64,000 nt of DNA from Rikenellaceae bacterium (lineage in GTDB: Bacteria > Bacteroidota > Bacteroidia > Bacteroidales > Rikenellaceae). The position numbers and the translations under genes were made by a program. Numbering within the stretch: position 1 is the stretch's first letter; every line of letters begins with the position of its first letter. The notes beneath the pieces were generated by a model, which made no database searches, had not been told where the DNA came from, and worked only from the letters and a program-made list of their open reading frames with translations. Location: positions 1 through 64,000 of the forward strand of contig SUZB01000002.1 of the NCBI GenBank assembly GCA_015060115.1. The letters are read 5' to 3'. Of the stretch, positions 2,991 to 58,418 are shown piece after piece.

Positions 2991-3595
2991 ATAGGACTCG
3001 AAGCGTAGCGCCAAGGGCGCAAGCTCGCGCGGATACCTTAGAAAAAAAAGCGCAGACCAAAGGTCGAGCAATAAATCATTATCACATCCGCGCAACCTGC
3101 CAAATATACTATGCTGGGCACAAATTTAGACTTTGGCGGAATTGCGTAGCAATTGGTTGATGATGTGGGACATCGTGAGCTTGCTCAAACGATTGCACAC
3201 ATCAGCAACATTAGGCTGTGAAACAGCCCCGCCAAAGTCAAACACAGCACAAAAAAAAGACCGACTTCAAAAAAGTCAGCCTTTGTGCCCAGGATAGGAC
3301 TCGAAGCGTAGCGCCAAGGGCGCAAGCTCGCGCGGATACCTTAGAAAAAAAGCGCAGACCAAAGGTCGAGCAATAAATCGCTATCATATCCGCGCAACCT
3401 GCCAAATATACTATGCTGGGCACAAATTTAGACTTTGGCGGAATTGCGTAGCAATTGGTTGATGATGTGGGACATCGTGAGCTTGCTCAAACGATTGCAC
3501 ACATCAGCAACATTAGGCTGTGAAACAGCCCCGCCAAAGTCAAGCTCAGCACAAAAAAAAGACCGACTTCAAAAAAGTCAGCCTTTGTGCCCAGG
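2991..3595 (-). repeat. two tandem ~302/303 bp units, each carrying the 3' end of tRNA-Leu and a structured domain
   Basis: 2991-3293 and 3294-3595 nearly identical; unit boundary ataggactcgaa recurs at 2991, 3294 and inside tRNA-Leu at 3596. Confidence 0.93.
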
Positions 3596-3669
3596 ATAGG
3601 ACTCGAACCTACATGCCGTTAAGCACTCGCACCTGAAACGAGCGCGTCTACCATTTCGCCACCTGGGCA
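3588..3669 (-). tRNA. tRNA-Leu (CAG)
   Basis: reverse complement TGCCCAGGTGGCGAAATGGTAGACGCGCTCGTTTCAGGTGCGAGTGCTTAACGGCATGTAGGTTCGAGTCCTATCCTGGGCA; acceptor TGCCCAG/CTGGGCA, loop TTCAGGT. Confidence 0.93.
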
Positions 3670-9330: not shown

Positions 9331-9410
9331 AGTCGTAAGTTTTAAGTTCTTAGCAAAGATACTAAAAAAATAGGAGATAGCAATGGGGAGTCAGAAATTG
9401 GGGTGGGCTT

Positions 9411-9446
9411 GGGTATTTTGGGTACTTTGGGTACTATGGGTATTTT
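9411..9446 (+). repeat. 9-bp tandem array GGGTAYTWT x4
   Basis: GGGTATTTT|GGGTACTTT|GGGTACTAT|GGGTATTTT. Confidence 0.85.
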
Positions 9447-14133: not shown

Positions 14134-14165
14134 AAGGCGCAGACCTGTAGCGCAGGCTACTTAGA

Positions 14166-14201
14166 GGGGCAAAAGGGGTATAAGGGGTATAAGGGGCACA
14201 T
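14166..14201 (+). repeat. 9-bp tandem array GGGGNANAA x4 (four G4 tracts, 5-nt loops)
   Basis: GGGGCAAAA|GGGGTATAA|GGGGTATAA|GGGGCACAT. Confidence 0.85.
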
Positions 14202-16576: not shown

Positions 16577-16626
16577 AGGGGGGGGCAGGCGTTTCGCCTG
16601 CGGACTACGCCCCAAGGGACAAAATA

Positions 16627-16745
16627 ATTTTTAAGACCGATAAGACCGTAAGACTTTAAGACCATTACGAGGTCGAGTATCAAAAAATCCTACTTGTCCT
16701 AATCGTCTTACTTGTCCTAAAAATTCTAACAACTAAAAACTAAAA
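16627..16745 (-). repeat. nested 9-bp-iterated palindrome with core TGATACTCGACCTCGTAATGG
   Basis: minus strand: GGACAAGTA AGACGATTA GGACAAGTA ... core ... GGTCTTAAA GTCTTAC GGTCTTATC GGTCTTAAA. Confidence 0.8.
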
Positions 16746-16784
16746 AAGAGCGATTGGAGATTTTCCAACCGCTCTTTTTAGTCT
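16744..16784. terminator. bidirectional Rho-independent terminator
   Basis: AAAAAGAGCGATTGGAGATTTTCCAACCGCTCTTTTT. Confidence 0.8.
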
Positions 16785-32491: not shown

Positions 32492-32540
32492 GCTAAAAAA
32501 CAGCGGATGGAAAATTTTCCATCCGCTGTTTTTTTAGCTT
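32492..32540. terminator. near-perfect palindromic Rho-independent terminator
   Basis: AGCTAAAAAACAGCGGATGGAAAA/TTTTCCATCCGCTGTTTTTTTAGCT. Confidence 0.88.
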
Positions 32541-32692
32541 TTAGTTTTTAGTTGTTAGATTTTTTAGGACAAGTAGGACTGGTAAGACGAGTAGGACAAG
32601 TAGGATTTGTTTGATACCCGACCTCGTAATGGTCATAAAGTCTTAAAGTCTTATCGGTCTTAAAAATCTCTAAAAACTAACAACTAATAGCT
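32541..32692 (+). repeat. nested 9-bp-iterated palindrome with core TGATACCCGACCTCGT
   Basis: GGACAAGTA GGACTGGTA AGACGAGTA GGACAAGTA - core 32613-32628 - GGTCATAAA GTCTTAAA GTCTTATC GGTCTTAAA, flanked by TTAGTTGTTAG/CTAACAACTAA. Confidence 0.83.
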
Positions 32693-32694
32693 CC

Positions 32695-37830: not shown

Positions 37831-38033
37831 TAGTTGTTAGTTTTTAGTTGTTAGTTGTTAGAGAGCAGGCGTTAAGCCTGTGGGTTGAAGCGCCTCGTTG
37901 AGACGCAGAGCTTAAACTCCATGAGACTGTGGGAAAGACGAGAGAGACGAGAGAGACGAGAGAGACAACAACGAAGTCTGGTATCATCTTTCACTGTGGT
38001 CTCTGTGGTCTCTGTGGTCTCTGTGGTCTTTTC
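37831..38033 (-). repeat. 9-bp-iterated inverted arrays (GACGAGAGA x3 / GGTCTCTGT x3+)
   Basis: 37937-37966 and 37998-38033 with central GTCTGGTATCATC; preceded by TTAGTTG heptamers and two small hairpins. Confidence 0.82.
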
Positions 38034-38063
38034 ACCCGATTTAGCGTCAAAAGTGCGTGAGCC

Positions 38064-38204
38064 TAATTTCTTGTCAGAAGGGGTCTAATTTGGTCTCGAC
38101 ACGAAGAAGCCCGGATGGGCTGTACTTGGCGTACTGCTCATTCGGGCTTCTGACTGAGAGGCCGAAGTAGACCCCTTATCACAAGAAATTATCACAAGAA
38201 ATTA
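38064..38204 (-). repeat. 128-bp stop-codon-associated palindrome (copy B, rny) plus a 13-bp end duplication
   Basis: TAATTTCTTGT...ACAAGAAATTA (38064-38191) then TCACAAGAAATTA; last TTA is the rny stop. Confidence 0.85.
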
Positions 38205-51492: not shown

Positions 51493-51690
51493 GTTGTTAG
51501 TTTTTAGTTGTTAGTTTAAGACAAGCAAGACGATAGGACGATAAGACAAGTAAGACGATAAGAAAAATTGTGATACCCGACCTCGTATGGTCTTAAGGTC
51601 TTAAGGTCCTAAGGTCTTATCGGTCTTAAAAATCTCTGCGCTCGAAACGAGCGCAACTCTAACAACTAACAACTAACAACTAACAGCTCA
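51493..51690 (+). repeat. nested 7-bp/9-bp-iterated palindrome with core TGATACCCGACCTCGT
   Basis: TTAGTTG heptamers, AAGACAAGC/AAGACGATA arm, core 51571-51586, GGTCTTAA arm, GCGCTCGAAACGAGCGC hairpin, CTAACAA x4. Confidence 0.85.
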
Positions 51691-57989: not shown

Positions 57990-58019
57990 TTGCACTTTCT
58001 GAAATTTTTTGTATCTTTG
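57990..58019 (+). promoter_or_regulatory. Bacteroidota-type promoter for the B12 operon
   Basis: TTGC at 57990-57993 and TATCTTTG at 58012-58019 directly upstream of the riboswitch. Confidence 0.55.
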
Positions 58020-58024
58020 CATCA

Positions 58025-58200
58025 GCATTGGTTCTCGGTGGGCACGCAAGCCCCCAAGAGATTAAAAGGGAATCGGGTGAAAATCCCGAACAGTTCCCGC
58101 TGCTGTAATTCTCACGAGTGTCTGCGACATCATTTAGCCACTGGCCTTTGGGCTGGGAAGGCTTCGCAGAAGGAGATAAGTCAGAAGACCTGCCAAGCGT
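58025..58200 (+). promoter_or_regulatory. cobalamin riboswitch
   Basis: AAAAGGGAATCGGGTGAAAATCCCGAACAGTTCCCGCTGCTGTAA ... GAAGGAGATAAGTCAGAAGACCTGCC (Cbl aptamer/B12-box signatures). Confidence 0.95.
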
Positions 58201-58418
58201 TTACAACGAGATTGTGCCTGCGGCGAATGGGCAAGTCTGCGACTGAAAATTTTCAGGTATTATATATTATAGGTATAACTCGTGGAGGAGGTATATTTTC
58301 TCGCCATAGCTATATCCCCGAAGCCTGAAATCGCTCAAGTCTCACAATTTAAGTCCATAAGCCAAGAGTTCTCGTCTGTGTAAAAGTTTACGGAGAATGA
58401 CCTTTTAACAAACATTTT

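Follow-up and report, generated by a model that had tools for sequence, protein, structure and literature searches.

A nested palindromic repeat with a conserved center and iterated arms in intergenic spacers of an Alistipes lineage

We analyzed a window of 64,000 nucleotides (the whole stretch at positions 1 to 64,000 of contig SUZB01000002.1) from a Rikenellaceae bacterium whose assembly, a 1.96-Mb Alistipes draft that is 94% complete, is called G000 here. Among named RNase Y loci, those closest to its own belong to Alistipes MAGs from ruminant gut. At 51493–51690, an outer heptamer palindrome, (TTAGTTN)n...(CTAACAA)n, surrounds a second palindrome. The inner one has left units of about 9 bp (RRGACNANT) and 8-bp right units (GGTCYTAA) that flank TGATACCCGACCTCGT, and a GCGCTC/GAGCGC hairpin is also present. 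Below, N denotes the inner element, H and H' the outer arms, and G the hairpin. Direct reading of the layout confirmed the nested complementary arrays described in the original prediction:

51493–51517, + strand: H, left heptamer array (TTAGTTN)n, outer arm, complementary to 51659–51685
51518–51562, + strand: left array of N, AAGACAAGC AAGACGAT AGGACGAT AAGACAAGT AAGACGAT, some units being separated by an additional base
51563–51570, + strand: A-rich step, (AGA)AAAATTG, ahead of the core
51571–51586, + strand: core, TGATACCCGACCTCGT, the apical part of the palindrome
51587–51632, + strand: right array of N, (GGTCYTAA)5, with an A-run at its end
51638–51654, no strand assigned: G hairpin, GCGCTCGAAACGAGCGC
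51655–51686, + strand: H', right heptamer array (CTAACAA)4, outer arm; 3.9 units counted at 51659–51685
32531–32694, + strand: second copy (H, N, and H', no G hairpin), core at 32612–32627, in a convergent spacer
16626–16756, − strand: third copy (H and N only), core at 16667–16682 with one mismatch, in a convergent spacer
37928–38036, − strand: sub-type B, (GAGACCACA)n AAAGA TGATACCAGACTTCGT TGTTGTC (TCTCTCGTC)n, core at 37971–37986

Copies, conservation, and predicted folding

In the window copy, AGAAAAATTG directly follows the left units (51518–51562); coreless versions in relatives have AAGAAAAAATCTT where this copy has the A-rich step. The core is exact at 51571 and 32612, has one mismatch at 16667 (−), and has a two-mismatch relative at 37971 (−), where shuffled windows give an expectation of 0.32 matches at ≤3 mismatches and no shuffle reached 5. 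The layout as well as the core had been described as recurring at 32.6 and 16.65 kb. The core does so, but the GCGCTC hairpin is missing from the first of these copies and both the hairpin and the right heptamers from the second. The 37.97-kb copy represents a second sub-type (B) with GAGAC/GTCTC units.

A genome-wide search for the core had been proposed as a check, and the core proved strongly enriched, with 189 matches at ≤2 mismatches in G000 (94 forward and 95 reverse) against a total of one for the reversed pattern (0 and 1 on the two strands). Detailed analyses covered 846 kb of G000, taken as stretches, which hold 127 element copies (109 of type N and 18 of type B). The element is a small non-coding DNA hairpin with well over a hundred copies and a nearly fixed 16-letter center. 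The core of N is exact in 62 of the 109 copies, with a mean divergence from the consensus of 4.4% per base and hardly any variation at positions 2–4, 14, and 16. The 18 ungapped bases to the left of the core diverge by 45%, a figure inflated by their unaligned register. Right-array length is nearly fixed (3–4 units in 98 of 109 copies) and its variation is confined to a few positions, chiefly a C/T site, with GTC and TA fixed; the left array varies. The original prediction gave iterations of 7 and 9 bp; counted across the 109 copies, the left units of N are mostly of 9 bp (212, with 78 of 8 bp), but the right units are mostly of 8 bp (249, with 43 of 9 bp). N sits within H, as 87% of its copies have heptamers ahead of them and about one-third are followed by right heptamers or a G hairpin. 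One H-G-H' palindrome without N was found (contig C2, about 132.0 kb).

The arms form 27.7 pairs, compared with 10.1 in shuffles, and fold z-scores average −3.1 for the strand that carries the core and −3.6 for its complement. Among congeners (numbered G genomes), the same core lies between complementary GAGAC/GTCTC arms in G035, G025, G011, G125, and G142, and between AAGAC/GTCTT arms in G104, G145, and G111. One core in two kinds of complementary arms supports hairpin formation at the level of the family. Covariation offered no further evidence of pairing and was set aside, as concordance between A/G and C/T variants of paired units within G000 did not exceed permutation. The idea that iterated units pair freely in many registers is at best partly upheld: the arrays are iterated and complementary, but the right array is near fixed, left and right unit numbers are uncorrelated among G000 copies (r = 0.05), and no concordant variation is seen. 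The arms pair strongly in G000 and several other species but only weakly in G103, and those of G139 do not pair, so conservation of the core and right array reaches further than that of the complete palindrome.

Position between genes

None of the 127 cores in the 846 kb lies within a gene (simple gene caller; 84% coding), and no coding gene accounts for the arrays. Counting copies, with a few spacers holding two, and considering spacers of at least 30 bp, N occurs in 33/69 convergent, 65/248 co-directional, and 7/69 divergent spacers (convergent versus divergent, P = 1 × 10−6). Within co-directional spacers, 46 copies have the core running against the genes and 19 have it running with them (P = 0.001). 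Just over half of the oppositely oriented copies (24/46) are flanked on the right by a hairpin that is terminator-like on the transcribed strand. In the window copy this hairpin is GCGCTCGTTTCGAGCGC, with a T-run after it on the − strand; there the G hairpin, followed on that strand by AGATTTTTAA, is terminator-like for a queG-like gene. Core orientation shows no clear replication-strand pattern when compared with GC skew by contig.

This placement is what a host-useful RNA element might show, that is, a 3'-end hairpin that acts as terminator, insulator, or mRNA stabilizer, is selected, and has spread through its usefulness. The 3'-end bias, the 46:19 orientation with its 24 terminator-like flanks, the terminator-like hairpin of the window copy, and the stable predicted fold all speak for it. 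We nevertheless consider it unlikely, given that N has a T-run before it and an A-run after it with no U-tract following the hairpin, that 19 copies are oriented the other way, and that the orthologous spacers of close relatives manage without the core, which is patchy across the genus. A GC-rich hairpin with a U-tract is absent from N itself and present in the adjoining G hairpin of the window copy. Identity with a known RNA was rejected, as no Rfam covariance model matched the element at E ≤ 1. A cobalamin riboswitch (Rfam RF00174) lies elsewhere in the window, at 58011–58211.

Relatives and orthologous spacers

Among 180 genomes of the genus, strict-core counts were 140 in G000, 58 in G103, 32 in G035, 8 in G145, 5 in G125, 4 in G142, and 0–3 in the others, most congeners having 0 or 1. 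G145 and G111, the closest congeners in the sample, have 8 and 2 cores. Single TGATGCCCGACTTCGT matches in many congeners are one similar, apparently coding stretch and not elements. None of 24 genomes that belong to the same order but to other families has the core, and the longer GTCTC sub-type pattern occurred in no other genome of a sample of 395 from the order. In G103, three tandem cores with 75-bp spacing lie at C29:37786–37951, their left arms not matching the right arrays.

The element might also be the binding site of a chromosome-organizing or DNA-uptake protein, since it has many copies, equally divided between strands, with a conserved core. That function is very improbable, however, for something nearly absent from most congeners with similar genomes; copies are also clustered or in tandem, and iterated arms would be unnecessary for such a site.

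Over the 50.4–52.6 kb region, G145 and G111 are 85–90% identical to G000. The spacer orthologous to 51493–51690 holds heptamers and no N in G145, and in G111 a different palindrome:

L211:13470–13684 (G111, contig C2): palindrome of 11-bp units (CAGAGAGGATA / CTCTCTGAAAA)

Between G000 and these 85–90% identical relatives, 23 of 27 comparisons of orthologous spacers were scored as without the core, although one of the 23 (C20:55519) was placed there wrongly because the aligned gap ended early, and that copy is in fact shared. Five of the 23 match the pattern of an AAGAC/GTCTT palindrome that has no core; others have H only, P palindromes (a family described below), or modules labeled Q and R. 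Shared N copies keep the core and differ in unit number between relatives (a comparison between strains had been suggested earlier): G145 has more left units at C18:54 kb and fewer heptamers at C20:55.5 kb. Most orthologous spacers hold other arrays, and we found neither a clean empty site nor a target-site duplication among them. At L213:10640–10800 (G111, contig C44), an H-Q element marks a jump in synteny with G000, C27 giving way to C20, which suggests that repeats have rearranged or that the draft was joined there in assembly.

By pattern, AAGAC/GTCTT palindromes with and without the core number 97:2 in G000 and 1:10 in G111; G145 was left out of this contrast because several of its contigs had been chosen for carrying cores. 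We tentatively raise the possibility, itself doubtful, that the 16-nt tip is a mobile module of its own, put on, or swapped among, different iterated stems (AAGAC/GTCTT and GAGAC/GTCTC) by an as yet undescribed process that hairpins direct. Whole sets of intergenic palindromes would then be rewritten species by species, as in the opposite proportions of G000 and G111.

Spread, comparison with known repeats, and interpretation

The best-matching copy lies ≤40 kb away for 30 of the 109 N copies, where 8.3 are expected and the maximum in 2000 permutations was 23. Similar neighboring copies occur in either relative orientation. This excess of near best matches is the pattern that local spread would give, and gene conversion could be an alternative source of local similarity.

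A Y1 transposase (PF01797; RAYT/IS200) was detected in none of 18 genomes (G000 and 17 congeners) in a search that recovered its positive controls, and RAYT/IS200 mobilization was rejected. Copying by a reverse transcriptase was likewise rejected, as neither G000 nor G035 yielded RVT_1 (PF00078). Searches of G000 for DDE_Tnp_1, rve, and IS1595 domains also came back empty. These negatives are to be read in light of a 94% complete draft, as such assemblies often lose multicopy IS. IS5/IS4, IS3/IS30, and IS1595 transposases were accordingly dropped as movers, none having been found in the G000 assembly. Among the DDE_Tnp_1, rve, and IS1595 families searched, G000 yielded no IS with which the repeat might share terminal inverted repeats, and a DDE_Tnp_1 element in G111 has ends unrelated to the repeat. 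The original prediction would have failed had a known IS explained the arrays; in G000, no transposase of the types searched (Y1, DDE_Tnp_1, rve, and IS1595) does. The exact core occurs in four viral contigs, all without any array, and phage and plasmid sequences gave no useful match to the element, so a phage or plasmid origin was rejected.

Spread could also be free of any enzyme, with short repeats exchanging sequence by template switching or ectopic gene conversion and slippage producing the arrays. Such events would suit the resemblance of nearest copies, unit variation that consists mainly of transitions at fixed places, modules swapped between spacers in an orientation that can be inverted, and the lack of a transposase among the domains searched. 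Efficient copying is nevertheless needed to explain how a 16-bp core, altered at one or two positions, came to as many as 189 dispersed sites and why bursts are limited to a few species, and there is little continuous homology among copies; we judge this route improbable.

A literature search yielded nothing on interspersed repeats of Rikenellaceae, and we know of no heptamer repeats of cyanobacteria or Xanthomonas that form palindromes around a conserved core. Those repeats resemble ours as short intergenic 7-bp arrays (PMC4692102). Like the REP/REPIN-RAYT system, N comprises short extragenic palindromes in more than 100 copies, with mosaic or tandem arrangements and predicted hairpins in single-stranded DNA or mRNA (PMC3116915, PMC2817692). 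REPINs, however, have conserved outer REP ends around a spacer, whereas N has a conserved center and variable arms, and no cognate RAYT (Y1 transposase) was found in any of the 18 genomes. CGTC-tagged REPs are also palindromic, occur in Bacteroidetes too, and have no dedicated transposase (PMC3733652), but N has T-run and A-run ends with central conservation in place of a GTAG/CGTC tag and conserved outer ends (consensus judged by eye), iterated 8–9-mer arms, and a 16-nt core where those REPs have a 4–5-bp loop. Pneumococcal BOX, RUP, and SPRITE are similarly modular, with a variable-number internal module, stem-loops, and enrichment between convergent genes, a bias taken as a mark of parasitic elements (PMC3049150). 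N shares this modularity, variable internal unit, and convergent-spacer bias; its 7–9-bp units are far below the boxB module length, and the likeness is one of layout, with no sequence relation claimed. The BrickBuilt MITE of Porphyromonas gingivalis, also in Bacteroidales, is an intergenic minisatellite within an inverted-repeat element (PMC4596501), but with 23-bp units, 19 copies, and IS5-type terminal repeats that have a matching IS, where G000 has no detected DDE_Tnp_1 gene.

Our best reading is that N is a lineage-specific, hairpin-forming, non-autonomous intergenic repeat of the REPIN/BOX/MITE kind, turned inside out. With a probability of roughly 60%, we propose that this dispersed non-coding repeat within H is a non-autonomous mobile or copied element that has recently multiplied in this Alistipes lineage, probably as selfish DNA in this species and a few relatives. 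In being multicopy, intergenic, 3'-biased, and patchy, with bursts in single lineages and exchange of palindromes at the same spacer, N fits the pattern of non-autonomous selfish repeats like BOX/RUP (PMC3049150) or REPINs (PMC3116915), an analogy short of established membership in either group. A single strand of N would fold by pairing of its arms, with TGATACCCGACCTCGT placed at the tip or close to it. The tip is the likely recognition site; we infer both this recognition and mobility through a trans-acting enzyme. The arms would need to keep only GAC/GTC words, and so could change by gain or loss of short units. Copies build up 3' of genes, where insertion would do least harm, and some may also provide an intrinsic terminator via the adjoining GCGCTC hairpin.

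The inside-out design, with a fixed center and iterated, changeable arms nested in another palindrome, is an addition to the interspersed palindromes catalogued from bacteria, and it comes from a host that yielded no RAYT, the usual partner. With close relatives that have or lack the core at the same spacers, the spread of transposase-less palindromic repeats becomes directly testable, and the variation in unit number could serve as a natural strain marker.

Other repeats accompany N. Across the 846 kb, 128 iterated palindromes are intergenic and one lies in a gene, with none in simulated sequence; among them is the P family, with center GATAAATGTCGGTAGCGC. In the window, a long palindromic element at 38036–38200 has ends AATTTCTTGTCAGAAGGGG / CCCCTTATCACAAGAAATT, an end motif found 78 times in the 846 kb, and an inner terminator-like hairpin with a variable stem and a conserved loop, GGGCTGTACTTGGCGTACTGCTC. 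Two 302-bp tandem copies, 98% alike (2991–3607), adjoin a tRNA-Leu gene (3587–3668), and each starts with a piece resembling the end of that tRNA gene. A heptamer array followed by (TTCCCTACA)n occupies 2843–2946, and further 9-bp arrays lie at 9409–9446 and 14165–14196. A series of short CACGGGTA...TACCCGTG hairpins occurs at C27:126380–126870 of G000 and at L213:8940–9870 in G111, where it is longer than in G000.
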